The notes under the pieces: generated by a model
Databases searched by the model: none
What the model was told of the DNA's origin: nothing
Seen by the model: only the letters and a program-made list of their open reading frames with translations
Position numbers and translations under genes: made by a program
Shown: positions 1,430 to 32,665 of the stretch, piece after piece
Numbering within the stretch: the first letter of the stretch is position 1
Layout of the letters: each line of letters begins with the position of its first letter
Origin: Gemmatimonadota bacterium
Lineage (GTDB): Bacteria; Gemmatimonadota; Gemmatimonadetes; Gemmatimonadales; Gemmatimonadaceae
NCBI GenBank assembly: GCA_947462095.1
Contig: CANHNQ010000015.1
Span: forward strand, 1 to 44,088
DNA: 44,088 nt
Direction of reading: 5' to 3'

Positions 1430-1458
1430 AGTATCGTCTCCCCGCCCCACTGAGTCAA
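1430..1458 (-). promoter_or_regulatory. sigma-70-like promoter for tRNA-Asn
   Basis: On the minus strand TTGACT (1458-1453) is followed after exactly 17 bases by GATACT (1435-1430), a fair match to -35/-10 consensus. It would start transcription about 50 bases before the mature tRNA 5' end. The -35 box overlaps the last codons of uvrA, which is transcribed in the same direction, so the tRNA appears to have its own promoter. This rests on sequence match only. Confidence 0.55.
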
Positions 1459-4292
1459 GCGGGGAGCACCGTCTTGAGCCACCGCCCCGTGTGCGACGCC
1501 GCCACCTGCACGATCTCCTCCGGCCTGCCCATCGCCACCAGATGCCCGCCGCCGTCGCCGCCGTCGGGGCCCATATCCACGATCCAGTCGGCCAGCTTGA
1601 TCACGTCGAGGTTGTGCTCGATCAGCAGCAGCGTGTGCCCCTGATCGAGCAGGCGCTCGAACACCTGCGCCAGCTTCCGGATGTCCTCGAGGTGCAGCCC
1701 CGTGGTGGGCTCGTCGAGCACGTACAACTTCCGGGCGCCGCCCCGCGCCGTGAGCGCGAGCTCGCGGGCAATCTTCAGGCGCTGCGCCTCACCGCCCGAG
1801 AGCGTGGTGGCCGGCTGCCCGAGGCGCAGGTACCCCAGCCCCACCTGCTGCACGTGCCACAGCGCCTGCGCCAGCTTGTCCTCGCGGGGGAAGAACTTGA
1901 TCGCTTCGTCCACCGTGAGCTCCAGCACGTCGGCGATGTTCCGGCCACGGACCCGCACCTCGAGCACGTCGGGCTTGAAGCGCTTGCCGCCGCAGGCATC
2001 GCATGGCACGAACACGTCGGCCATGAACACCATCTCCACCTCGATCGCCCCCGCGCCCTCGCACTGCTCGCACCGCCCACCGGCCACGTTGAACGAGAAA
2101 TGCCCGGGCCCGTAGCCACGCGTTTTCGACAGCGGCATCTCGGCAAACAGCTTGCGCACCTCGTCGTACGCTTTCACGTACGTCACGGGGTTCGACCGCG
2201 GGGACTTACCGATCGGACTCTGGTCCACCAGCACCACGTCGTCGAGAAACTCGTCCCCTGACAACGACGTGAACGTGCCCACGGTCTCGCCCAGATGCTC
2301 CTTGGCCGAATGTTCGCCGTGCAGCCGGGCTTCCACCGCATGAAAGAGAATGTCGTGCACCAGCGTACTCTTGCCCGACCCGGACACGCCGGTCACCACC
2401 GTCATCGCGCCCAGCGGAACGCGCACGTCCACGTGGTTCACGTTGTTGGCGCTCGCCCCCTTGAGATCGAGCCAGCGCGGCCCCACCGTGCGCCGCTTGG
2501 CGGGCAACGGAATGGTGCGCGCGCCGGTCAGATACTGACCGGTGAGCGGACTGTTGGCGATCTCCGCAATCGGGCCGGCGAACACCACCTCGCCGCCATG
2601 TTCACCGGCGTGCGGCCCCAGCTCCACCATGTAGTCGGCAATGCGCATCGCCTCGAGATCGTGCTCCACCATGATCACGGTGTTCCCGTGATCGCGCAGC
2701 CGCATGAGCAGGGCCAGCAGCTTGTCGAGGTCGCGCGGATGCAACCCGATGCTGGGTTCGTCCAGCACGTACGTGGCATCCACCAGCGCCGCGCCCAGCG
2801 CATTCGACAGCGTGATGCGCTGCGCCTCGCCGCCCGACAACGTGCGGGTCGCGCGATCGAGCGTGAGATACGTGAGCCCCACGTCCGACAAAAAACGCGT
2901 GCGGCTGCGCGCTTCGCGCAGCACCGCCTCCGCGATCTGTGTTTCACTCGGCGACAGCGACAGTGTGTCGAGCCACGTGTGCAGATCACGCACCGGCATC
3001 TGCGTGACGTCGGCGATCGTGCGCTCCTGAATACGCACCGCCATCGCGTCGGGCTGCAGTTTGCTGCCACCGCAGTCGCGGCAGGAGCGCGCGCTCTGAT
3101 ACTTCCGCAGGAAGATGCGGATATACTGCTTGTAGCGCTTCTCCTCGAGCGCCTCGAGAAACGGGAAAATGCCGGTGTAGGCGCGCGACTTCGAGCGCAG
3201 GAGCTGCTCGCGGGCCTTCGCCGGCAGCGTCTTCCACGCCGCATCGGGGGACACGCCCAACGAGCGCGCGAACTCCACCACCGTGCGTCGCTGTTTCTCG
3301 TAGCGCGGCGCCGTCCACGGATCGATCGCACCATCGCGCACCGAGCGGTCCTGATTCGGCACGATCAGCGCCTCGTCATAATCGAGCGTCGCACCGAAGC
3401 CGTTGCAGGTGGGGCAGGCGCCACGCGGATTATTGAACGAGAACAGCTGCGGCGACGGCGTGGGCGCGCGCGTGCCGTCGTTCGGGCATTCGAATCGCTC
3501 GGTAAAGGCCAGACGCGACACCGCCGTGTTCCCCGTGCTCGCCCGCAGGGCCTCCGGTGGCAGCACCGGCTCGGGGAACAGCAGTACCGTGTCGCCGTCG
3601 CCTTCGTTGAACGACGTCTGCACGGCATCGGCAATGCGACCGCGGGCGGACGCCTCCACACGCAGCCGGTCGATCACGATCTGTACGTCGCGCGCCGCCG
3701 CCAGATCGATCCCCTCGGCGTCCACGTCGTCGAGATGCACGATACGCTCGCCGAGCGCCACGCGTACCAGCCCGCGCGCGCGCAGGTTCTCGGCGATCAC
3801 GGCGTGCGTCACATCGGCGGAGCGAATGAGCGGACACGCCACCATGAAGCGCGTGCCCTCGGGGAGCGCCATGACCGCGTCCGTCACGCTCTGCACCGTG
3901 TCGGGGCGCAGCTCGCGACCGCACACGCGGCAGTAGGTGCGCCCCACCCGCGCCCACAGGAGTCGCAGATAGTCGTAGATCTCGGTCGCCGTGCCCACCG
4001 TCGAGCGCGACGTCCGCGTGGGATTCTTCTGCTCGATCGCCACGGCCGGCGACAACCCCTCGATCGAATCGACCGCCGGTTTCTCCATCCGCTCGAGAAA
4101 CTGGCGGGCATACGCCGACAGCGACTCCACATAACGCCGCTGGCCTTCGGCATAGATGGTATCGAAGGCGAGCGACGATTTGCCCGAGCCCGACACACCG
4201 GTCACCACCGTGATGGCCCGTCGGGGAATGTCGAGGTCGAAGCCCTTCAGATTGTGCTGACGGGCGCCACGAATGCGAATGCGATCCTTCAT
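1455..4292 (-). CDS. uvrA: excinuclease ABC subunit A (UvrA)
   Basis: This 945-residue protein (E. coli UvrA is 940) is the damage-recognition ATPase of nucleotide excision repair, acting with UvrB in the cytoplasm. The first ATPase module has Walker [10 protein letters not shown] (about 32-40); both modules carry LSGGEAQR signatures and LDEP Walker B segments; the second Walker A is GVSGSGKST. The C-terminal zinc module is intact (CEQC and CDAC pairs, about 740-770). The first zinc module is incomplete: CPND (Cys269, Asp272) replaces the usual CPxC, while the CPTC pair (293/296) remains. The start at 4292 ([17 protein letters not shown]) matches the family. The same frame stays open to 6377, but that extension is antisense to the ABC exporter and is not coding. 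It is divergent from the exporter, with only 42 bases between the start codons. Confidence 0.97.
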
Positions 4293-4334
4293 GCCGTGAA
4301 AACTATCGGGGCGGCCCGCTAGATTCCGCATCTC

Positions 4335-6344
4335 ATGGCTGCTCCCGCGAAGACGACGGCATCCCCCGACGACGAAGCACTCGGCAAAGCGTACGACGCC
4401 CGGCTCGTACAGCGGCTGCTGGCGTACGTGCGCCCGTATCGTCCGCTGGTCGTCGCGGCACTGGCGTGCATCATGATCCAGTCCGGAATGCAGCTGGTCG
4501 GCCCCCTGCTGACCCGCTGGGTCATCGACCAGGCGCTGCCGGCGCGGGACGTGGGGCTGGTCGTGCAGGTCGCCGTCCTGTATGCGGCCTTGCTCGTGGC
4601 CCAGTTCGGCGCGGCGTTCGGGGAGAACCTGTTCACGTCGCTGCTGGGGCAGCGTGTGATGCGTGATCTGCGTCGTGAGCTCTTCGCGCGGCTGCAGCAC
4701 CTCCCGGTCTCCTTCTTCGACCGCAATCCAGTGGGCCGGCTGGTCACGCGCGTGACCAGCGACGTGGAGGCCCTGAATGAGTTGTTCACATCGGGCGTCG
4801 TGGCCGGCGTGGGTGACCTGTTCACCCTGATCGCGATCGGCGTCGTCATGGTCGTGGTGGACTGGCAGCTGGCCATGGCCGCGTTCGTGGTCATTCCGCT
4901 GGTGCTGATCGCGTCGCGGGTGTTTCAGAATGCGGTACGCACCAGCTATCGCGACATCCGGACGCGGTTGGCGCGGCTGAATGCCTTTATCGGCGAGCGG
5001 ATCGGCGGCATGCGGATCGTGCAGCTGTTCGGGCGGGAAGCGCACGAACTCCGTCGCTTCGACGTGCTCAACCAGTCGCACCTCGATGCCCATCTGAAGT
5101 CGATCACGGTGTACGCGCTCTACTTCCCGGTCATCGAGTTCCTGACCACCTTCGCGCTGGCCAGTCTGCTGGTTACCGCCGGATTCCGGGTTGGGAGCAG
5201 CGCCATCACGGTGGGCACGGTGGCCGCGTTCCTGCAGCTGGTGCGGCGCTTCTTTCAACCGCTGCAGGATCTCTCCGAGAAGTACAACATTCTGCAGGGG
5301 GCGATGGCTGCGTCGGAGCGCATCTTCGGCCTGCTCGATACGCCGGAAGCGGCGGGCGTCACGACCACCCCCGACCGGGACGCGCGCGTGGAGGCCCTGC
5401 GGTCGGCCGGCGTGACGGTGGTGTTCGAGGATGTCTGGTTCGCCTACGACCTGGAGCAGGGGGTGTCGGAGGATCTGTCGCCGGCCTCGTACACGGCGGC
5501 CCATGCGCTCGTGCCCGCGGCGGCTGGCGGCGAAGCCACGGGTGGGCGCTGGGTCCTGAAGGGGGTGAGCTTCCGCGTCGCGCCCGGCGAAGAGATCGCG
5601 CTGGTGGGGCATACCGGCGCCGGCAAAACGACGATCGTGAACCTGCTGCTCCGCTTCTATGAACCGCAGCGCGGTCGCATCCTGGTCAATGGCGTCGACA
5701 TCCGTGAGCTGCCGGTGGACGTCCTCCGTGCGGTGGTCGGCTATGTGCAGCAGGACATTTTTCTCTTTGCGGGCGACGTCGCCGGCAACCTGCGGCTCGA
5801 CGCCGCGATCGATGACGCAACGCTGGCGGCGGCTGCCGCGCGGGTAGGCGCCGACCGGGTCATCGAGCGTTTGCCCGGCGGCTGGCACCACGAGCTGGCT
5901 GAACGAGGGGGCGGCGTGAGCGTGGGCGAGCGACAGCTGCTGGCCTTCGCGCGCGCCGTGGCGGCCGATCCCGCGTTGCTGATCCTCGACGAGGCCACCA
6001 GCGCGGTCGATTCGCACATCGAGGCCGAGATCCAGCGAGCCGTGTCGGCGCTCATGCGTGGCCGCACCACGATCGCCATCGCCCATCGGCTCAGCACCAT
6101 CATTGACGCCGATGAAATCCTCGTGCTCCACCATGGGGAAGTGCTGGAACGGGGGACCCATCGCGAGCTGCTGGCCCATCAGGGGCTCTACGATCGGCTC
6201 TTCCGCTTGCAGGTCGGCGAGCCGGAGCGCGACGCATCGGGGGACAACGGCTCGCGACCGTCCGATCCGGCAGCCCCCGTTCAAGACACGGATCTGTCGG
6301 CGAGCCCGGCCACGCGCTTGCCAACCGACGCCGCTCTCGGGTAG
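4335..6344 (+). CDS. ABC transporter, fused permease/ATPase (MsbA/MdlB-type exporter)
   Basis: A 669-residue half-transporter with an N-terminal six-helix exporter domain (about residues 30-330) and a C-terminal ATPase. The nucleotide-binding domain shows an A-loop Tyr (FAYD, about 367), Walker A GHTGAGKTT (about 425), a Q-loop in YVQQD, signature VSVGERQ (about 528, in place of LSGGQ), Walker B LLILDEAT (about 549) with the catalytic Glu, and the AHRL switch His. The signature resembles the MdlB/YheH class, whose members often form heterodimers; no partner half is adjacent, so a homodimer is possible. A roughly 33-residue low-complexity insertion separates the A-loop from the next strand. 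The C-terminal ~40 residues are Pro/Asp-rich. The substrate is unknown; lipid or drug export is typical of the family. Confidence 0.92.
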   Translation: MAAPAKTTASPDDEALGKAYDARLVQRLLAYVRPYRPLVVAALACIMIQSGMQLVGPLLTRWVIDQALPARDVGLVVQVAVLYAALLVAQFGAAFGENLFTSLLGQRVMRDLRRELFARLQHLPVSFFDRNPVGRLVTRVTSDVEALNELFTSGVVAGVGDLFTLIAIGVVMVVVDWQLAMAAFVVIPLVLIASRVFQNAVRTSYRDIRTRLARLNAFIGERIGGMRIVQLFGREAHELRRFDVLNQSHLDAHLKSITVYALYFPVIEFLTTFALASLLVTAGFRVGSSAITVGTVAAFLQLVRRFFQPLQDLSEKYNILQGAMAASERIFGLLDTPEAAGVTTTPDRDARVEALRSAGVTVVFEDVWFAYDLEQGVSEDLSPASYTAAHALVPAAAGGEATGGRWVLKGVSFRVAPGEEIALVGHTGAGKTTIVNLLLRFYEPQRGRILVNGVDIRELPVDVLRAVVGYVQQDIFLFAGDVAGNLRLDAAIDDATLAAAAARVGADRVIERLPGGWHHELAERGGGVSVGERQLLAFARAVAADPALLILDEATSAVDSHIEAEIQRAVSALMRGRTTIAIAHRLSTIIDADEILVLHHGEVLERGTHRELLAHQGLYDRLFRLQVGEPERDASGDNGSRPSDPAAPVQDTDLSASPATRLPTDAALG

Positions 6345-6403
6345 CTTCGCTTCTCTCCTGCGGGTTCCACGCGTCATTTTCGGTCTGACCCCTTCCTATT
6401 CAC

Positions 6404-24711: not shown

Positions 24712-25740
24712 CTACTCCAATGCCTGAGTGAGATCGTCGATCACGGTCGACGCATCGTCGAGTCCGATGTTGAGCCGGATCGATCCGTCGGGGAGTGCAC
24801 TCGCCACCGATTCGATGCCGCCGAGTCGCGCGGTATCGTCGGCCGGCTGCACGCGGATGTGCTGCAGACGGCCGAGCAGCGCGCCCACCGCCGCGTCACC
24901 GCCACGCAACGCGATGGCGATCAGGGAGCCGTACCCTGAGAAACATGCGGAAGCCACCGCATGATCGGGGTGTGTGGCGAGACCGGGATAATACACCGCG
25001 CGTAGTGCACGCCGGTCGGTGGCCTGCGCGGCAGCCCATTGCGCCACCGCCATCGCCGTGGCGTTCTGCTGCGCGACGCGCACCTCGAGGGTCTTGAGCC
25101 CGCGGGCCAGATGCTCCACGGCGACGGGATGCGGCTCGGCCCCCCAGGACCGCATCTTGGCGCGGACCTCGTCAACCACGGCGTCGCTGCCGCACACAAC
25201 ACCGGCCACGCCATCCGCATGGCCGTCGAGAAACATGCTCGCAGAGTGCAGCACCACATCGGCCCCGTGCGCCACGGGACGGAAGTTGATGGGACTGGCG
25301 AGCGTGGCATCGACCACCAGCGCGAGCCCGAGTTCGTGCGCCAGCGTAACCGCCGGGCGCATGTCGACGATGCGGGTGGTGGGATCGACGGGCGACTCCA
25401 GGTACATCAGTCGCGTGGTCCGCGTGAGCGACCGCCGCCAGCCACGCGTTTCGGTAGGGTCGACGAAGCTGACCTGCACGCCGAGTGCCGGGAGCTCGTG
25501 CTCGAAGAAGCGGCGCGTGTCCGGACGGAGCCATCGGCTGGCGAGCAGATGGTCACCTTGGCGGAGCAACGACACCATGGTGCCGGCCACGGCAGCCATG
25601 CCGCTGGCCAGCACGAGGGCGGATTCGGTCCCCTCGAGCCGCGCCAATTGCCGCACCACAGAGCGGTCCGCGTGCCCGGAGGCCACGGCGTCGGACCGCC
25701 CGGGCGACGGCATGGGGGGCATCGGATCGATGTCACTCAT
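24712..25740 (-). CDS. Cys/Met-metabolism PLP-fold protein lacking the catalytic Lys
   Basis: A 342-residue protein of the cystathionine gamma-synthase/beta-lyase fold from ATG 25740 (GTG 25749 possible; the earlier open frame overlaps the preceding gene). Clear family segments are LEGTESALVLASGMAA (about 35-50), LVVDATLASP (Asp144, PLP pyridine ligand) and VLHSASMFLDGHADGVAGVV (split across about 164-182). In family members the last reads HSxTKYxxGHSD, with Lys forming the PLP Schiff base; here that position is Met169 (codon 25236-25234). The YGRxGNPT and GYGGT-type Tyr segments are also replaced, and the loop after ESVAS is shortened. The C-terminal Arg (RLNIGLDD) remains. It is therefore probably a pseudoenzyme or has a changed role. 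It lies between the regulatory genes and ftsE. Confidence 0.85.
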   Translation of the reverse strand: MSDIDPMPPMPSPGRSDAVASGHADRSVVRQLARLEGTESALVLASGMAAVAGTMVSLLRQGDHLLASRWLRPDTRRFFEHELPALGVQVSFVDPTETRGWRRSLTRTTRLMYLESPVDPTTRIVDMRPAVTLAHELGLALVVDATLASPINFRPVAHGADVVLHSASMFLDGHADGVAGVVCGSDAVVDEVRAKMRSWGAEPHPVAVEHLARGLKTLEVRVAQQNATAMAVAQWAAAQATDRRALRAVYYPGLATHPDHAVASACFSGYGSLIAIALRGGDAAVGALLGRLQHIRVQPADDTARLGGIESVASALPDGSIRLNIGLDDASTVIDDLTQALE

Positions 25741-25792
25741 GTCGGGCACGGCGATGGGAATGCAGAGGTGGACAGCGAAGCGCCGAACCGGG

Positions 25793-26125
25793 TCAGACGC
25801 GCGTCCGCGAGTCGGTATCCAGCTTGACCACGCGCACGAGTTCGGACGGAGCGGCCCCGACGACGTCTCGCAGGACACACCCGCCGCGAGGCAAGCTGTC
25901 GTCGATCTGCAGTTCGGCCAGTTCGGAACGTCGCTCCGATACCACACGCACCAGTTCGTGTCCCGTCACCAGACGCACCAGCGCGTCATCGGAGCGCAGG
26001 CGCACCATCGGCCCCCGCTCGGCGTCGCCGGGGCGGCTGCTGATGAATCCCACGACCTGCAGCACCGGGGAGAACCCGCTGAACATCCCCAGCTTTCTGG
26101 CTTTGGCCTTCTCTTCCTCGTTCAT
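25793..26125 (-). CDS. small beta-barrel-like protein of unknown function
   Basis: A 110-residue protein from ATG 26125, which overlaps the upstream stop as ATGA and has GAGGGG just before it; the longer frame to 26263 is not needed. A charged start (MNEEEKAKARKLG) is followed by short beta strands (LQVVGFISSR, PMVRLRSDDALVRLVTG, ELVRVVSERR, ELQIDDSLPRGGCVLRD). These recall the double-psi beta-barrel of molybdopterin-dinucleotide-binding domains (the VxVSSRRG...DDSLPxG pattern). It is much too short for an oxidoreductase, so only the fold similarity is suggested. There is no signal or membrane segment. Its place in the overlapping gene chain suggests it works with the STAS/ATPase pair. Confidence 0.65.
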   Translation of the reverse strand: MNEEEKAKARKLGMFSGFSPVLQVVGFISSRPGDAERGPMVRLRSDDALVRLVTGHELVRVVSERRSELAELQIDDSLPRGGCVLRDVVGAAPSELVRVVKLDTDSRTRV

Positions 26126-26679
26126 GTTCCCCTCGCCACGGTGCCGGGCACCGCATAGCCGTCGTCCCGACGCATGATCAGCCGACGGCCGCGCAGTCGT
26201 TCCAACTGCGCGGCCACCGCGGTCTCGCTGACTGCCAGGATCGGCGCCAACGATGCCGCCCAAATCGGCCCATGATCGCGTACCGCTTCCCAGTGCAGCC
26301 GTTCCTCGTCGTCCACGTGGCCGAACAGTTCGGCTGCCCCCTCATGCCATGATACCAACGCCAGCGCATGACGTTCGAGGACGGTCTCGATCGGGTCGAT
26401 GTGCCCCTCGTGAATCCCGCGGAACGTGAGAAAGCCCGGGAGGCCATCGTCGCTCGCGTAGCGCAGCAGGAGCTTGGCGACGATCTCGTCGGCGCACGAG
26501 AAATCGAGCAGGTTGACCTGCGAGAAATCGATCGTGGTCACGACCGAGGCCCCCAGTTCGACCACCTGCTGCTCGATCGCCGTGCGCACGGCGGCGCCGG
26601 TGGGACGTGTGACCAGATTGGAGTACAGATCGCACACCGTGCCGCGCAACACGGTCCCGACGTCGATGTTGACCGTCAC
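26122..26679 (-). CDS. STAS-like (DUF4325-type) protein with C-terminal winged-helix-like region
   Basis: A 185-residue protein from GTG 26679, which overlaps the preceding stop as GTGA; its own stop overlaps the next ATG. Residues about 1-100 resemble STAS-like/DUF4325 domains: GAAVRTAIEQQVVELGA, then IDFSQVNLLDFSCADEIV (50-67). Ser61 in DFSCADE falls about where anti-anti-sigma proteins are phosphorylated, though this is inference. Residues about 115-185 (HWEAVRDHGPIWAA..., SETAVAAQLERLRGRRLI, YAVPG) look like a MarR/winged-helix unit. The protein could thus link a partner-switch domain directly to DNA binding. The adjacent GHKL ATPase is the natural partner kinase. Confidence 0.75.
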   Translation of the reverse strand: MTVNIDVGTVLRGTVCDLYSNLVTRPTGAAVRTAIEQQVVELGASVVTTIDFSQVNLLDFSCADEIVAKLLLRYASDDGLPGFLTFRGIHEGHIDPIETVLERHALALVSWHEGAAELFGHVDDEERLHWEAVRDHGPIWAASLAPILAVSETAVAAQLERLRGRRLIMRRDDGYAVPGTVARGT

Positions 26680-27623
26680 AACGTGCTCCGCGTCCGCCCG
26701 CGGGATGCACCGGCAGTGCGGCTGCGCACGGGCGCCTCGCCCAGTCGTTCGGGAATCGTGACCTGCATCTGGGCGCCGGGAAAGAAGGGCAGTCCTTCGG
26801 TCATCGGCATATCTTCGTCCCACTCGGGGGTGATGGCAATGCGGGCGGTGCCGCTGCGCACCGAGAGCTTGCCGTCCCAGCGTCCCACGAAGCGACGGAT
26901 ACCGGCCAACCCCTGACCGCGGCCTTTGTCACCGTGCCGGAAGCGGCTCACGGCGCGCAGCACGGCATCTTCGAGCGCCATCGCATCATCCCAGCGATCG
27001 CTGCGACGATGTCCCGGCGAGCTCTCGAGCGACTTCCGGAAGCCCACGCCGGCATCGCACACGGCAATCACTACCACGCGACGGCCGAGGCGGCGGGAAT
27101 ACTTGTACGTCTGCACCGCCACCCATCCCCCGAGGCCCGCGTGCTCCACGATGTTCTGACACGACTCACTGAGCGTCATGCCGAAGGCGCCGGTGATCGC
27201 CGTGTCGAGATTGAGCTGACCGTGGAGAATGTCGGCGGCCTTCTGCTGAATCCGCCCGACGACCCCATGTACGTCGTCGCTCTTGGTGATCGGGGTGATC
27301 TCGAGCAACACATCCGACTCGTGCACGTCACGCGCCCGTGGCACGGTGCCGTGCATGTCGTACAACTCGGCCGCATGCCGGAAGAAGCCCGCGCGCGACC
27401 AGTACGACACCGTGTCGGCATGCTCCGGCACGGCGAAGCCCATGCGGTCAGGGCGCGACTGTGCGACACACAGCAGGGCCGTCAGTCCATACGGCGACGC
27501 CCAGCGCGCATGACGCGCGTCGACGAGAATCTTGGCGCCGTCGGGGACCAACGCCAATTGCTCGAACACCTGCTCGAAACTGTGCTCATCGAGTGATGGC
27601 GGTACGCTGATGACAGTCGTCAC
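26676..27623 (-). CDS. GHKL ATPase with N-terminal STAS-like region (anti-sigma-type kinase)
   Basis: A 315-residue protein from GTG 27623 (GTGA overlap with the upstream stop). Residues 1-110 look like a STAS domain (GAKILVDARHARWASPYGLTAL, split around 29-50). Residues about 125-295 form a HATPase_c domain: N-box LSESCQNIVEHA (151-162, with Glu153 and Asn157), G1 box CDAGVGF (189-195) and G2 box GDKGRGQGLAGI (231-242). There is no His phospho-acceptor domain, so it is a Ser-kinase-like, RsbW/SpoIIAB-type ATPase rather than a sensor His kinase. The C-terminus is Arg/Ser-rich. Being fused to STAS and overlapping a second STAS gene points to partner-switch signalling. Confidence 0.82.
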   Translation of the reverse strand: MTTVISVPPSLDEHSFEQVFEQLALVPDGAKILVDARHARWASPYGLTALLCVAQSRPDRMGFAVPEHADTVSYWSRAGFFRHAAELYDMHGTVPRARDVHESDVLLEITPITKSDDVHGVVGRIQQKAADILHGQLNLDTAITGAFGMTLSESCQNIVEHAGLGGWVAVQTYKYSRRLGRRVVVIAVCDAGVGFRKSLESSPGHRRSDRWDDAMALEDAVLRAVSRFRHGDKGRGQGLAGIRRFVGRWDGKLSVRSGTARIAITPEWDEDMPMTEGLPFFPGAQMQVTIPERLGEAPVRSRTAGASRGRTRSTL

Positions 27624-28669
27624 GAAAGACTCAGCTCTCCGCGAAGATGATTCGCGAGCCCGGTGGCCCCGCGATGCTCGACGTTGCGCGACGCGGCCGC
27701 ATTCGCCGTCGCAATCGCATCCGTTAACCTATCACCGGCAAGCAGTCGCGAGAAATGGGTCGCGCCCCAGACATCACCACATCCGGTGGGATCACCGGGG
27801 CCATCGACCCGTGGTGGAACACTCGGTACCAGCCCCGTACGCAGCGCCCCAAGGGCGCCGCTGCCACCGCGCGGCGAGGTGGACAGCGCAGAGGTATGCC
27901 CTCGCGCGGGCGGGAGGTCACTCAGGTGCTCGAAGCCAGGGGCCGCCACGTAGACCGCCCCGCGCTTGCCGAGGGTGACGCACAGGCACGATACACCGGC
28001 GGCCATCGCGGTGGCCGCGAGCGCCATCGAGTCGGGCGCCATCATCTGCATCTCGTCTTCGTTCACCTGAAGCACATCGAAGCAGGCGCACCACGCCGCC
28101 ACATCGGGCAGCGGTTGCGCCACGCGCAGCCCATCGGGGAGCACCGCCATGATCTTCATGTGCAGATCACAGTAGATCGGGCCGCTGAAGTGCGCCCGCA
28201 CCAACTGCGTGGTCTCGAGGTCGAGCTCCCAGCCGCTCAGAAAGTTGATGTACAGCGCATCCAGTCGCGCGGCATCGAGCACGGGCTTGAGGCCCATCCA
28301 CGTCCATGCCGGCACGCCACCGGTGAGATGTTCCGTGCGCCGTTCATCATCGAGATAGCGCAGCTCTACGCGGTTGTTCGGATACGGCACGCCGATGATC
28401 TCCGCATCCGGCGCCATGTGACGCAACGACCGGCAGAACAGGCGCGCGCGATCGACCAGATCGTCGCCCACCCGCGCGAGCGGCACGATCTCCCAGTCGT
28501 CCGGCAGTGCCGCGTCGAGGGCCGACAGCGAGTACGTGATGCCACCCCATTCTTCCACCGGGACGCTGCGCTTGTCACGACCATGCAGCACGTCCCAGAC
28601 GAACGAGCCGATCACGCCCACCCGCTTTTTCCGCGACGCCGTTGGCGCCCCACCGTCGGTGTGCGTCAC
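27620..28669 (-). CDS. PfkB-family carbohydrate kinase
   Basis: A 349-residue PfkB/ribokinase-like sugar kinase from GTG 28669, which overlaps the ROK kinase stop as GTGA. An N-terminal strand VGVIGSFVWD is followed by WGGITYSLSALDA (about 41-53, substrate-side Gly-Gly), NEDE (203-206, the NxxE motif binding Mg) and DPTGCGDVWGAT (293-304) with catalytic Asp299. An insertion of about 37 residues (254-290, Ser/Gly/Pro-rich) precedes the last motif. The substrate, whether sugar, sugar phosphate or nucleoside, cannot be read. It also overlaps the GHKL ATPase by 4 bases, an unusual partner for a sugar kinase. A longer upstream frame is antisense to the ROK gene and is rejected. Confidence 0.88.
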   Translation of the reverse strand: MTHTDGGAPTASRKKRVGVIGSFVWDVLHGRDKRSVPVEEWGGITYSLSALDAALPDDWEIVPLARVGDDLVDRARLFCRSLRHMAPDAEIIGVPYPNNRVELRYLDDERRTEHLTGGVPAWTWMGLKPVLDAARLDALYINFLSGWELDLETTQLVRAHFSGPIYCDLHMKIMAVLPDGLRVAQPLPDVAAWCACFDVLQVNEDEMQMMAPDSMALAATAMAAGVSCLCVTLGKRGAVYVAAPGFEHLSDLPPARGHTSALSTSPRGGSGALGALRTGLVPSVPPRVDGPGDPTGCGDVWGATHFSRLLAGDRLTDAIATANAAASRNVEHRGATGLANHLRGELSLS

Positions 28670-29673
28670 GCGGGCGGCCGACCGGTATGCTGCGCGATGA
28701 ACGTAGCCACGGCGCCCACCACCCCGGCGGTGCCGGGGAGGGTCCCGGGTACGATCCGGCAGGCATCCACCGCCGGCTTGAATGCGCGACGACGGACTTC
28801 CTGACGGAGCGGCCCGAACAACGCCTCGCCGGCCTGCGTCACGCCGCCGGCGATCACGACGCAATCGGGGTTGAACACGTTCAGCAGATTCGCGATGCCG
28901 GTGCCGAGGAAACGGGCCGTGTCGCGGACGATTTCGACGGCCACGACATCGCGCTGCGCAGCGGCCGCATACACCGTGGCGGCCGTGATCTTCGATACGT
29001 CGCCGTTCACCAGGTCCGGCAGAATCGACTGCTGCTCGAACGACAGCGCCTCGCGCGCGCGTTCGGCAATCGCCGTCCCGGAGGCATAGGCCTCGAGGCA
29101 GCCGTAATTGCCGCACCCACAGCGACGACCGGTTTGGTCGATCGTGGTGTGACCGATTTCTCCCGCCACGTCACTCGACCCGTGATACAGCTTGCCGTCG
29201 AAGATGATGCCGCCGCCGATGCCCGTCCCGATCGTCATGCCGATCACATTGCGCGCGCCCTTGGCGGCACCCACCCACCACTCGCCGTACGTCGCACAAT
29301 TCGCGTCGTTGTCGAGCGCCGCCGGCAGTCCGGTCAGCGCCGTCATACGATCGCGCAGCGGGATGTTGTGCCAGTTGAGATTCGGCGCCACGAGTACGAT
29401 GCCTTTCTCGCGGTCCAGCGGTCCCGGTGCGCCCACGCCCACGCCAAGAAACGCGTCGCGCGTGACACCCGCCTCGCGCATGGTCGCCGTCACGGATTCG
29501 TTCACCATGCGGGCCATGCGCGCGATCACCCCATCGGCACCCTCATGGGCCGTGGTGGGTTCGGAGCTCAAGCCGTACTGGCGCGATCCGTCGGCGGACA
29601 TGGCGCAGACGACAATGTTGGTGCCGCCAAGATCGACACCGACAATGAACTGGTTGGCAGGGAGGGCAGTCAT
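28666..29673 (-). CDS. ROK-family glucokinase-like sugar kinase
   Basis: A 335-residue ROK kinase from ATG 29673 (a GTG at 29697 is possible). The ATP-binding loop VGVDLGGTN lies at 11-19. Further on are LDNDANC (catalytic Asp region), GTGIGGGII, the ROK Zn/sugar signature GEIGH followed by CGCGNYGCLEAY, and the adenosine motif VIAGGV. This pattern fits glucokinase or N-acetylhexosamine kinase; the Cys cluster CxCGxxGCxE is complete, so zinc should be bound. It is the first gene of the four-base-overlap chain and lies 66 bases after the GT9 gene. Confidence 0.93.
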   Translation of the reverse strand: MTALPANQFIVGVDLGGTNIVVCAMSADGSRQYGLSSEPTTAHEGADGVIARMARMVNESVTATMREAGVTRDAFLGVGVGAPGPLDREKGIVLVAPNLNWHNIPLRDRMTALTGLPAALDNDANCATYGEWWVGAAKGARNVIGMTIGTGIGGGIIFDGKLYHGSSDVAGEIGHTTIDQTGRRCGCGNYGCLEAYASGTAIAERAREALSFEQQSILPDLVNGDVSKITAATVYAAAAQRDVVAVEIVRDTARFLGTGIANLLNVFNPDCVVIAGGVTQAGEALFGPLRQEVRRRAFKPAVDACRIVPGTLPGTAGVVGAVATFIAQHTGRPPA

Positions 29674-29739
29674 ACGGGCAAAAGATAACGCCGCCACCCA
29701 GTGCCAGCCTCGGCACCGGCGAGAGGCATCGCCTCGCCC

Positions 29740-30771
29740 TCACGACGTCTGGCTGATCCTCGTGACCGCCTCGGCCACGCGTCCCGCCGACAGGTCGCGC
29801 ATGCACTGCCAATGGGCCAGCGGACACGCGCGACCGCCGTGGGCGCTGCACGGCCGACAGGGGAGCCCCTCCCGTTCCAGCACGGCGTGCCGATCCGCCA
29901 CCGGCCCGAATCCCATCGCGGGCACCGTGGGCCCGAAGAGGCTGATGGTCGGCGTGTTCATCGCCGAGGCCAGATGCAGCGGCGCCGAGTCGTTGGTCAC
30001 GAGCGCCGTGCAGCGCGCGAGCAGGGCCGCCGATCCGAGCAGCGAAAGCCTGCCGGTCGTATCGACGATCGGGCGGCCGCCGCGTTGCCGCACGGCGTCC
30101 GCGATGGCCGCGGCCAGCGGGGCATCACCACCGGCGCCGATCACGACCACGCGATGGTCCGGAAGGCGCGCCACGAGCTCACCCGCCAATGCGTCATACG
30201 ACGGCCAGCGCTTGGTCGCCCACACACTGCCGGGAGCGAGCGCGATCAGTGGCGCACCGGGGGGGATGTCGGCGGCCTCCAGCAGCGCGGTCACCTGCGC
30301 CTCGTCGGGGGCGCCGGGATACAGCGAAGGGCGTAGGCGGGTCGGGGTGGGCGCGGGATCGCGCGGATCATCGGCCAGCGCCCACAGGCGCACGGCGTGA
30401 TGCCAGTCGTTGCGGTACGCCACACGGCGCGAGTACAACCACCGTCCCGCCGAGGTGTCGAACCCGACGCTCTCCACACCGGCGAGCCGCGCCAATGCCG
30501 CCGTACGCCACGAGCCCTGCGCCATGTACGCCGTGGTCGCGCCGGTCGCCCGCACTCGCGCCGCCACCCGACGCAGCCCGGTAACGCCCGCGTCGGACTT
30601 CCGTTTGTCGTACACAATCACCGACGACACCGCCGGATGATTCGCCAGCACCGCCGCATTCGCCGGCGTCGCCACCACATGGACGTCACCCGCACGCGCC
30701 AGCCGCTCGATGAGCGGGGTCGTGAGGATCATGTCGCCTAGGAACGAGGTTTGGAGGACGGCGGAGACCAT
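29740..30771 (-). CDS. glycosyltransferase family 9 (heptosyltransferase-like)
   Basis: A 343-residue GT-B glycosyltransferase. The opening QTSFLGDMILTTPLI is typical of ADP-heptose:LPS heptosyltransferases (WaaF/WaaC family). The C-terminal half shows LAPGSVWATKRWP, a PIVDTTGRLSLLGSAALL segment and the donor-site region VTNDSAPLHLASAMNTP followed by LFGPT. Such enzymes add heptose or other sugars to lipopolysaccharide core at the inner face of the inner membrane. A C-terminal Cys-containing segment (CRPCSAHGGRACPLAHWQC) is also common in the family. It is the first gene downstream of the 30784 repeat and is likely transcribed separately from lepA. Confidence 0.9.
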   Translation of the reverse strand: MVSAVLQTSFLGDMILTTPLIERLARAGDVHVVATPANAAVLANHPAVSSVIVYDKRKSDAGVTGLRRVAARVRATGATTAYMAQGSWRTAALARLAGVESVGFDTSAGRWLYSRRVAYRNDWHHAVRLWALADDPRDPAPTPTRLRPSLYPGAPDEAQVTALLEAADIPPGAPLIALAPGSVWATKRWPSYDALAGELVARLPDHRVVVIGAGGDAPLAAAIADAVRQRGGRPIVDTTGRLSLLGSAALLARCTALVTNDSAPLHLASAMNTPTISLFGPTVPAMGFGPVADRHAVLEREGLPCRPCSAHGGRACPLAHWQCMRDLSAGRVAEAVTRISQTS

Positions 30772-30783
30772 ACAGCAAAGTAA

Positions 30784-30854
30784 GGAGTACGGAGTATGGA
30801 GTACGGAGTAGGGGGTAAGGAGTCGTCGACTCCCTACCCCCTAGTCCCTACGCC
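30784..30854. repeat. 7-bp tandem repeats inside an imperfect inverted repeat
   Basis: Four head-to-tail heptamers (ggagtac, ggagtat, ggagtac, ggagtag; 30784-30811) run into an inverted repeat of two 28-base arms (30798-30825 and 30827-30854) matching at 24 positions around a central T. It lies in the 97-base gap between the lepA stop and the GT9 start. It may terminate lepA transcription or be a dispersed chromosomal repeat. It is related in unit sequence to 21863-21883. Confidence 0.85.
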
Positions 30855-30868
30855 CTACTTCGCCGTCA

Positions 30869-32665
30869 TCAATCGACCTGCAGCACCGCAAGAAACGCTT
30901 CCTGCGGAATCTCCACGCTGCCCACCTGCTTCATGCGCTTCTTTCCTTCCTTCTGCTTCTCCAACAGCTTGCGCTTCCGCGAGATGTCGCCGCCGTAGCA
31001 CTTCGCCGTGACGTCCTTGCGCAGCGGCTTCACGGTTTCACGCGCGATGACCTTCATGCCGATCGTGGCCTGAATGACCACTTCGAACATCTGGCGCGGG
31101 ATCAGTTCCTTGAGCTTCTCGGCCACCTTGCGCCCCCACTCGTACGCCTTGTCCTTGTGCACGATCACCGAGAACGCGTCGATCGCGTCGCCGTTGATGA
31201 GCATATCGAGGCGCACGAGATCGCTTTCGCGGTACTCGAGGATCTCATAATCCAGTGAGGCGTAGCCGCGGCTCACCGTTTTCATCTTGTCGAAGAAGTC
31301 GAGAATGATCTCGCCGAGCGGAAACTCCCAGTCGAGCTCCACGCGCACCGTGTCGAGGAAGCGCGTGTTCTTGTAGATGCCACGACGCTCCATGCCGAGC
31401 GTCATGATCGGGCCGATGTAGTCCGACGGGCACATGATGCGCGCGCGCACGTACGGCTCTCGCACGCGCGTGATCACCACCGCCGGCGGCATGAGTGCCG
31501 GATTTTCCACCAGCAGCTCGGTGCCATCGGTCTTGAGGACCTGGTACTCCACGCTGGGCACCGTGGTCACGAGATCGAGATTGTACTCACGCTCCAACCG
31601 CTCCTGCACGATTTCCATGTGCAGCAGCCCCAGGAAACCGCAGCGGAAGCCGAAGCCGAGCGCGGTAGACGTTTCCGGCTCGTACTGCAGCGACGCGTCG
31701 TTGAGCTTCATCTTCTCGAGCGCATCACGCAGCGTTTCGTACTGCGTGGTGTCGGTCGGGTAGATACCGGCAAACACGAACGACTTCACTTCCTGGTAGC
31801 CGGGCAGCGCTTCGGGGGCGCGATTGTCCTGATCGAAAATCGTGTCGCCGGCGCGCGTTTCACGCACCGAGCGCACGGCGGCCAGCACGTAGCCCACTTC
31901 ACCGGCATGCAGCACCTCGGTGGGGACCTGGCGCAGCTGCAGGTAGCCCACTTCGGCCACCTCGTACACGTTGTCGGACGCGCCGAAGGTGATCTTGGTG
32001 CCTTTGCGCATCGAACCGTCGACCACGCGGATGCTCGGGATGGCACCGCGATACTTGTCGTAGTACGAGTCGAAGATGAGCGCCCGCAGCGGACCGTTCA
32101 CATCGCCCGAGGGCGGCGGCACGCGCCGCACGATCTCTTCGAGCAACTCGGGCACCCCGGTGCCTTCCTTGCCGCTCACCTGCAGCACGTCTTCCGGCCG
32201 GCAGCCGATCAGATCGACCACTTCCTGGCGACGGCGTTCCGGCTCCGCGCCCGGCAGGTCGATCTTGTTCAGCACCGGAATGATTTCGAGACCGGCGTCC
32301 ATGGCGAGGAACAGGTTCGACAGCGTCTGCGCCTGAATGCCCTGCGACGCGTCGACCACCAGGATCGCGCCTTCGCAGGCGGCCAGCGACCGCGAGACTT
32401 CGTAGGTGAAGTCCACGTGCCCCGGCGTGTCGATCAGGTTGAGCTCGTAGTTCTGCCCATCGCCCGCTTTGTAGCTCATGCGCACGGCATTGAGCTTGAT
32501 CGTGATGCCGCGCTCACGCTCGAGGTCGAGCGTGTCGAGCACCTGAGATTTCATTTCGCGCTTCTGCAACGTGCCGGTTTTCTCGATCAGGCGGTCCGCG
32601 AGGGTGGACTTGCCGTGATCGATGTGCGCGACGATGCAGAAGTTGCGGATGTGACTGAGTTCCAA
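30869..32665 (-). CDS. lepA: elongation factor 4 (LepA)
   Basis: A 598-residue translational GTPase (E. coli LepA is 599) that acts on ribosomes during initiation or back-translocation. The G domain has AHIDHGKST (G1, about 13-21), DTPGHVDF (G3) and NKIDLPGA (G4). The LepA-specific C-terminus ends [19 protein letters not shown], split here at the Lys-rich stretch. The start appears to be TTG at 32665 (reading MELSHIRNF); no in-frame ATG exists near it, and the family N-terminus agrees. A GC-only 13-bp hairpin lies in the gap upstream. Confidence 0.97.

Follow-up and report, generated by a model that had tools for sequence, protein, structure and literature searches.

A near-universal CapK-CapS-like kinase-STAS pair in a conserved gene row of Gemmatimonadota

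GHKL kinases and STAS proteins act together in switches such as SpoIIAB/SpoIIAA and RsbW/RsbV, in which the kinase phosphorylates a serine of the STAS protein and a sigma factor is released, the STAS proteins of these switches being devoid of any winged helix. The window, a stretch of 44,088 nucleotides from a bacterium of the phylum Gemmatimonadota, whose signalling is to our knowledge little known, resembles these systems in containing genes for a GHKL kinase and for a STAS protein with a conserved serine, but differs from them in that the STAS domain is linked to a winged helix. The original prediction combined this pair with two sugar kinases and a 110-aa protein into a cassette that corresponded to no described system, might respond to the state of a sugar kinase and might act directly on DNA. 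The question raised by the locus is what kind of switch the pair forms, and by which output it acts.

The gene row and the two proteins of the pair

Four overlaps of four bases, all on the minus strand (GTGA at 28666-28669, 27620-27623 and 26676-26679, ATGA at 26122-26125), successively link the genes for a ROK kinase, a PfkB kinase, a GHKL protein, a STAS-winged-helix protein and a 110-aa protein, and direct reading bears out both the overlaps and the five genes of the original prediction. A survey of homologues showed that the row is kept throughout the order, in line with the conserved adjacency that had been anticipated, with LepA, WaaF, ROK, PfkB, CysMet, FtsEX and EnvC as recognised conserved neighbours. 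The PfkB-GHKL junction is a 4-base overlap in 32 of the 34 order-level loci holding both genes and the GHKL-STAS junction in 27/35, counts for which the script chose the start nearest the expected one, with a mild bias towards overlaps; the overlaps in the order-level loci are more than chance. The STAS-winged-helix gene follows the kinase gene in 24/24 class-level loci, all picked for having the kinase, and in four of these, belonging to family f6, 518-1334 nt separate the two genes. Outside f6, the GHKL-STAS gap does not exceed 37 nt (55 loci) and the PfkB-GHKL gap 72 nt (52 loci with PfkB).

The kinase-like protein P0002 (26676..27623, minus strand) matches the Pfam profile HATPase_c slightly below the cut-off (E 2.7e-5, 25.0 bits for 26.4), a profile matched by all 35 rows of alignment A2 at E<=0.01. 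Its GHKL domain (about 26748-27281) is preceded in the predicted structure (pLDDT 84, pTM 0.84) by an alpha/beta domain (about 27339-27623), in which Pfam names no domain and which, judging from the order of its elements and from the match to CapK described below, would be STAS-like; the profile of the STAS protein, compared with that of the kinase, left this domain unmatched. Eight positions of the GHKL kinase motifs are invariant in the 59 orthologues, including the N-box E153 ... N157 (27153..27167, minus strand), equivalent to E214/N218 of CapK.

The partner protein P0003 (26122..26679, minus strand) has no Pfam match at E<=1, and DUF4325 (PF14213) is found at E<=0.01 in three of the 36 rows of alignment A1, the window protein not being among them. 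Its model (pLDDT 92, pTM 0.87) consists of a STAS domain (residues 1-112, about 26344-26679) and a winged helix (residues about 122-180, about 26146-26316), and the prediction of a STAS partner with its own winged helix was thereby upheld. Foldseek searches with the STAS model returned nothing reaching E 0.001, RsbS occurring among the structural matches at E 0.023. Ser61 (codon 26497..26499, minus strand), the predicted phospho-acceptor, is invariant in 60/60 Gemmatimonadota orthologues, in support of the original choice of this serine, and so are D59 and E65.

Relationship with described kinase-STAS systems

According to a recent paper (Chambers et al., EMBO J June 2026, PMC13373217), CapK is a GHKL kinase that phosphorylates CapS, a STAS-winged-helix repressor, and the two together have been presented as controlling immune operons, which CapKS adjoins while having its own palindromic promoters. 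Phosphorylation by CapK, stimulated by single-stranded DNA on which the aromatic residue W68 stacks, splits the STAS dimer and releases the repression exerted by CapS, which is thought to contact DNA via N145, K151 and the glycines of the wing. The same source equates CapS Ser54 with the serine position of SpoIIAA/RsbV, finds no effect of deleting the N-terminal HTH of CapK and, in the sections consulted, describes a pair acting without any sigma factor (PMC13373217).

The Gemmatimonadota pair displays the same architecture, a STAS-GHKL kinase gene followed by a STAS-winged-helix gene, with N-box and G-boxes intact and Ser61 aligned with CapS Ser54. Both halves match by profile: hhalign aligned P0002 with CapK over 266 columns (probability 98.3, E 1.4e-14) and P0003 with CapS over 144 columns (probability 92.5, E 4.8e-7), and a search of PDB profiles with the STAS profile gave 9Z71, i.e., CapS, as the top match. 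Therefore, the statement that no described system has this composition fails for the pair. Among the papers listed from the open-licence PMC literature, the CapKS paper has the only abstract describing such a composition, and zero papers were found on Gemmatimonadetes together with the STAS domain.

The two systems differ in several respects. P0002 starts with a strand of its first alpha/beta domain and the match begins at about residue 60 of CapK, so that the N-terminal HTH is missing. The position aligned with CapK W68 is never W, F or Y in the 59 orthologues, in a poorly aligned stretch where MAFFT places a gap opposite W68 for all 59; W41, a tryptophan in 57/59 and otherwise a phenylalanine, could stand in for it. 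Unlike CapKS, the pair has no recognised immune operon among its neighbours, and the short gaps outside f6 leave no space for an own promoter in most loci. An immune island was considered and rejected, since PADLOC applied to four proteins gave only DrmA-profile matches, to P0002 (E 3.4e-9) and weakly to P0003 (0.051).

Other kinase-STAS pairs share some features with the Gemmatimonadota pair. As published, VapK is a kinase without HTH, whose partner VapS, with a conserved Ser/Thr, binds a protein instead of DNA (PMC13373217). By this published description, P0002 and P0003 resemble VapK-VapS in the HTH-less kinase and the conserved serine of the STAS partner, and differ in that no VapC-like gene occurs among the recognised genes of the row. 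Plasmids of Nostoc (L190), Janibacter (L192) and Cytobacillus (L193) similarly encode HTH-less GHKL kinases of 282-290 aa next to a gene for a STAS-winged-helix-like protein with the serine kept, the kinases sharing 25-27% identity with P0002 in the matched part. The Janibacter and Cytobacillus pairs lie near ThiF-family genes, as does the CapKS of locus L181, in contrast to the Gemmatimonadota pair.

Inheritance, winged helix and probable output

The GHKL kinase occurs in 281 of the 298 genomes of the phylum (the six members of another class all lacking it) and the STAS protein in 291 of the 297 genomes of the class, which we take to be Gemmatimonadia. The predicted co-occurrence and adjacency proved close: of the 17 genomes without the GHKL kinase, 15 are likewise without the STAS protein, the other two having it at a contig start (G294) or as a partial match only (G162). 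Of the six STAS-less genomes, only G258 possesses the kinase, the gene of which is cut off by the end of the contig, and this genome was discarded as an exception to the pairing. In another genome (G206), the LepA-WaaF-ROK-PfkB-CysMet matches are in place and only the pair is gone. The gene tree follows the families, 10 groups being explained by 9 changes, the smallest number possible. The branch between the Gemmatimonadota and CapK sets is weakly supported (54%), with long branches and a great distance to CapK. The pair is best read not as a mobile immune regulator like CapKS but as a core module of the class that is passed on vertically, usually in a single copy. Relatives outside Gemmatimonadota were sought in plasmids, phages and viral contigs: 43 plasmid records carry a CapS relative, the phages yielded one, in a Gordonia phage (28.9%), the viral contigs none, and a plasmid search with the Nostoc kinase as query found only itself.

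The winged helix evolves differently from the STAS domain. The equivalent of CapS N145 is kept in 0/60 orthologues (5 gaps), K151 is a lysine in 1/60 and acidic in 33/60, and the wing glycines are found in 14/60 and 21/60. Mean pairwise identity of the orthologues reaches 46.4% for the STAS domain versus 27.4% for the winged helix, an order that is reversed in nine CapS-type proteins (25.0% versus 31.8%). The charge of the recognition helix, counted in 55 orthologues after leaving out five short ones, averages -0.27 (29 negative, 11 zero, 15 positive), compared with +1 to +3 in 9/9 CapS-type proteins, the whole-domain charge of which (-2 to +4) overlaps the range of the orthologues. Moreover, the winged helix is mostly absent from five of the 35 order-level orthologues (L056-L060), located on two branches. 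A direct action on DNA, as originally proposed, thus finds no support in a winged helix that changes fast, can be lost and does not keep the contact residues of CapS.

We lean towards reading the pair as a vertically inherited housekeeping phospho-switch of the CapKS type, the output of which, judging from the sequences, is probably no longer a CapS-style repression of DNA. By homology and from the invariant residues, P0002 would phosphorylate Ser61 in the STAS domain of P0003 and so change what P0003 binds, the pair being built into a LepA/sugar-kinase/FtsEX row. Given the strong conservation of the STAS domain, and a winged helix that lacks the contact residues, has no basic character on average and is largely gone from five orthologues, P0003 would most likely act in the greater part of the class by switching between protein partners.

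That P0003 is instead a true CapS-like repressor, dimers of which bind operators by their winged helix until phosphorylated by P0002, appears rather unlikely. The domain order shared with CapS, for which repression and its release are reported (PMC13373217), and the confidently predicted winged helix argue for it, and the winged helix is clearly positive (+4 to +7) in three of the four f9 orthologues (L158, L159, L168) and in an f5 orthologue (L176); DNA binding may therefore be alive in these four proteins, and elsewhere the drift could come from a changed operator specificity. The unkept contacts, the losses in L056-L060 and the little room for a promoter argue against it. The LepA-WaaF gaps (25 loci) and the stretches upstream of LepA (13 loci), read by inspection, contain some hairpins, which differ between relatives.

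A classical partner switch, with P0002 as anti-sigma factor, P0003 as its antagonist and a sigma factor encoded elsewhere, seems improbable. It would agree with a GHKL protein and a STAS protein bearing its serine at the SpoIIAA/RsbV position, through the published equation with CapS Ser54 (PMC13373217), and with the RsbS match, but the profile matches found, in direct comparisons made with CapK and CapS, are to these two proteins, described there as sigma-free. Nor does any sigma factor occur among the recognised conserved neighbours of the order- and class-level loci, as originally predicted.

Beyond the favoured phospho-switch, a more speculative and rather doubtful extension is that a CapK-CapS-type switch became, or always was, a class-wide core housekeeping regulator which shed its reading of DNA and has come to act on a protein target connected with the LepA-FtsEX row, in translation or cell division, the immune CapKS/VapKS and the Gemmatimonadota pair being branches of a wider, mostly undescribed sigma-free kinase-STAS family. 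The existence of a near-universal, vertical chromosomal relative of CapKS suggests a role in housekeeping, too, for sigma-free kinase-STAS switches; it offers data from a whole class on the fate of such a switch as its DNA-binding head decays, and a testable regulator in the phylum.

The small protein and the sugar kinases

In the favoured reading, the switch does not require the remaining genes of the original cassette (PfkB, ROK and the small protein), which lie beside it in the row. The 110-aa protein P0004 (25793..26125, minus strand), recognised by synteny and a 13-row alignment and with a Molydop_binding match below the cut-off (E 0.0047), was matched in 12/12 loci of the window's own family, in 0/23 loci of the two other families of the order and in none of the 24 class-level loci, where distant homologues could be missed. 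It was rejected as a general effector because it was found in one family only, and it does not belong to the cassette in general. Downstream lies a PLP enzyme of Cys/Met metabolism (24712..25800, minus strand; Pfam 3e-73), the N-terminus of which is provisional.

A switch reading the state of a sugar kinase, PfkB or ROK binding or modifying the pair, is very improbable: the overlap with PfkB in 32/34 order-level loci and its position next upstream of the pair in 20/24 class-level loci speak for it, but PfkB is lost or moved in the other four and occurs without the pair in genomes G278 and G288. Three of the four PfkB-less loci belong to genomes without a PfkB match at E<=1e-15, incomplete genomes in which a divergent PfkB could be missed, and the fourth has PfkB on another contig. 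Since PfkB can occur without the pair and the pair without PfkB, sugar sensing by PfkB was rejected as a necessary link, and with it the predicted response to sugar-kinase state. The ROK-family sugar kinase P0005 (28666..29697, minus strand; Pfam ROK, E 3.6e-71) is an upstream neighbour also recognised by synteny. The divergent PfkB-family kinase P0001 (27620..28669, minus strand; Pfam PfkB, E 4.2e-10, 39.9 bits for a cut-off of 25.8), a loosely linked partner, keeps G296, C297, G298 and D299 invariant in 35 rows, the aspartate of this motif presumably being the catalytic one.

Gene order around the kinase and STAS genes

The gene row of the window is encoded entirely on the reverse strand and comprises LepA (30869-32665), the heptosyltransferase-like WaaF (29740-30771), a ROK kinase (28666-29697), a PfkB kinase (27620-28669), the GHKL kinase-like protein P0002 (26676-27623), the STAS-winged-helix protein P0003 (26122-26679), a small protein of 110 residues (25793-26125), a Cys/Met PLP enzyme (24712-25800), FtsE, FtsX and an EnvC-like protein. 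LepA, WaaF, FtsE, FtsX and EnvC were named by reading translated frames, not by family search. The four start/stop overlaps and five reading frames of the original prediction, read directly in the window, were found as described. Judged by its named relatives, the window belongs to Gemmatimonadota, near Gemmatimonas.

Within the order, the STAS protein is present in 58 of 61 genomes. Among 35 order-level loci, selected for having the STAS protein, the kinase gene is always directly upstream of the STAS gene, and PfkB and ROK precede the kinase in all 34 loci that extend far enough. The wider row is conserved apart from a few cases: a WaaF match is absent from L053, L055, L056, L061 and L065 among the loci extending further, and L052 is devoid of the Cys/Met enzyme. 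Across the phylum, sampled evenly, the kinase occurs in 281 of 298 genomes and in none of the six genomes (one family) of another class, and the STAS protein is found in 291 of 297 class genomes (completeness floor 90%). Among 24 class-level loci from families f4, f5, f6, f7 and f9, in which presence of the kinase was the selection criterion, the kinase is invariably followed by the STAS gene and is preceded by PfkB in 20, two of these PfkB genes being cut by a contig end. In family f6, the PfkB-kinase gap measures 359-422 nt in two loci and the kinase-STAS spacing 518-1334 nt in all four; by eye, a cyclophilin-type peptidyl-prolyl isomerase gene lies between the kinase and STAS genes in three of them (L163, L164, L166). 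The FtsEX-LepA setting may reflect function or just old synteny.

In the LepA-WaaF gap (30772-30868) lies a hairpin made of GGAGTACGGAGTA-like units (3 matches at ≤1 mismatch versus 0.00 expected), its 36-nt arms being 83% complementary and 1 nt apart; other close relatives exhibit different hairpin-like stretches or almost no gap. The WaaF-ROK gap, 42 nt in the window, reaches about 1.0-1.3 kb in L032, L033, L035 and other same-genus loci, a size as if holding an additional gene. A UvrA-like frame of 1640 aa (1455-6377, reverse strand) is much longer than the usual UvrA, and Pfam's two UvrA domains start only past residue 800.

The pair as unit

The unit consists of the GHKL kinase and the STAS-winged-helix protein. 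The kinase was still missing from all 17 kinase-less genomes upon renewed search, and the STAS protein is absent from 15 of them, G294 possessing a STAS protein at a contig start and G162 a partial STAS match. Only one genome without the STAS protein, G258, carries a kinase, and there the contig breaks off within that gene. In G206 the LepA, WaaF, ROK, PfkB and Cys/Met matches are all in place and the pair alone is missing, and in G278 PfkB lies beside LepA, followed by 6.7 kb of sequence without the pair.

PfkB is distributed unlike the pair. At a threshold of E≤1e-15, below which a divergent PfkB could go undetected in these incomplete drafts, the pair is kept without a PfkB match in G234, G190 and G142, PfkB occurs without the pair in G278 and G288, and PfkB is absent from 11 of the 17 kinase-less genomes, six of the 11 from the other class. 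In G079, PfkB is located on a different contig from the pair; this genome also contains second, divergent relatives, STAS-like (25%) and GHKL (31%), on separate contigs (L200, L201). Since the pair and PfkB occur apart in both directions, the proposed response to sugar-kinase state is not borne out. The original prediction had correctly singled out the pair and its serine (Ser61); pairing is near-obligate and the serine is kept in 60/60 proteins.

Relation to CapK-CapS

The pair is a real, strongly conserved module and a new housekeeping variant of the kind described in 2026, CapK-CapS (EMBO J 2026, PMC13373217). The top PDB match of the STAS profile is 9Z71 (E 0.0045, positions 29-172), which that paper identifies as CapS from Enterobacter roggenkampii (PMC13373217). 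In profile-profile comparisons with plasmid-derived profiles (CapK, 5 rows; CapS, 6 rows), the kinase matched CapK with 98.3% probability (E 1.4e-14, 266 columns) and the STAS-winged-helix protein matched CapS with 92.5% probability (E 4.8e-7, 144 columns). The P0003 model, built with 36 sequences (pLDDT 92, pTM 0.87), is predicted to combine a STAS-like domain with a winged helix; among its Foldseek hits were winged helices, such as the CggR DNA-binding domain at rmsd 1.0, and Bacillus subtilis RsbS, none of the hits being at E≤0.001. The P0002 model (pLDDT 84) best matched ATPase domains of histidine kinases and GyrB, with a single match at E≤0.001.

When 59 kinases and 60 STAS proteins from Gemmatimonadota were aligned jointly with their CapKS counterparts, the equivalents of CapK E214, N218, H222, D249, G251, G253, G307 and G309 are kept in 59/59, and those of CapS D52, S54 and E58 in 60/60. 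Homology, invariant motif and acceptor residues, and near-obligate pairing are established. The comparison set is heterogeneous, with Cys at the serine position in L187 and Ser or Thr for N145 in the Nostoc and Cytobacillus rows. CapK K237 and K239 are not conserved in Gemmatimonadota, nor in most comparison-set rows. None of the 59 kinases has an aromatic residue at the position aligned with the ssDNA-stacking W68 of CapK, which MAFFT gapped against all 59 rows and which was mapped by hhalign and by distance to a Phe kept in 47/59. W41 of the kinase (57 W, 2 F) may substitute for W68.

According to the same paper, in the presence of ssDNA CapK phosphorylates Ser54 of CapS, the CapS dimer splits and repression ends; for VapK-VapS-VapC, a like release of the VapC nuclease is proposed, the VapK activity being itself a proposal there (PMC13373217). 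By homology and the invariant residues, P0002 would phosphorylate Ser61 of P0003, and the partners of P0003 would change upon phosphorylation. In most families the output would be a protein partner.

Winged-helix drift and descent

The putative DNA-reading part has drifted. Domain identity in Gemmatimonadota amounts to 46.4% for STAS versus 27.4% for the winged helix, and in nine CapS-type proteins to 25.0% versus 31.8%. The recognition-helix charge averages -0.27 over 55 orthologues, the five short proteins being excluded: it is negative in 29, zero in 11 and positive in 15. In the nine CapS-type proteins it lies between +1 and +3 without exception. The wing glycines G169 and G170 of CapS are found in 14/60 and 21/60. 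Direct action on DNA, as originally suggested, is not borne out, the equivalents of the CapS DNA contacts being Asn in 0/60 for N145 (5 gaps) and Lys in 1/60 for K151 (Asp or Glu in 33/60), but it may still occur. Against decay of the DNA head, whole-domain charge overlaps between the Gemmatimonadota and CapS-type sets, and a clear positive charge is seen in L158, L159, L168 (f9) and L176 (f5). Five order-level STAS orthologues of 143-146 aa (L056-L060) have lost most of the winged helix and offer a natural test of its importance; in the kinase tree L057-L060 group as a single clade, with L056 apart from them, giving two branches.

In that tree, a quick maximum-likelihood one, the Gemmatimonadota kinases occupy one side of a branch with weak support (54%). 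Each family except f2 forms one group (f4 at 27% support only), and the ten family labels need nine changes, the minimum; the tree is in step with the families. The distances from the Gemmatimonadota kinases to the CapK and plasmid rows are very long, so that either the immune or the housekeeping form may have come first.

Plasmids of Janibacter and Cytobacillus (L192, L193) encode HTH-less CapK-like kinases and STAS-winged-helix-like partners with ThiF-family genes nearby, and a relative in Gordonia phage Phishy is annotated as a histidine kinase. The PADLOC DrmA profile (1750 positions) matches P0002 at its positions 100-246 (E 3.4e-9) and, weakly, P0003 at its positions 311-366 (E 0.051), so in the same order.
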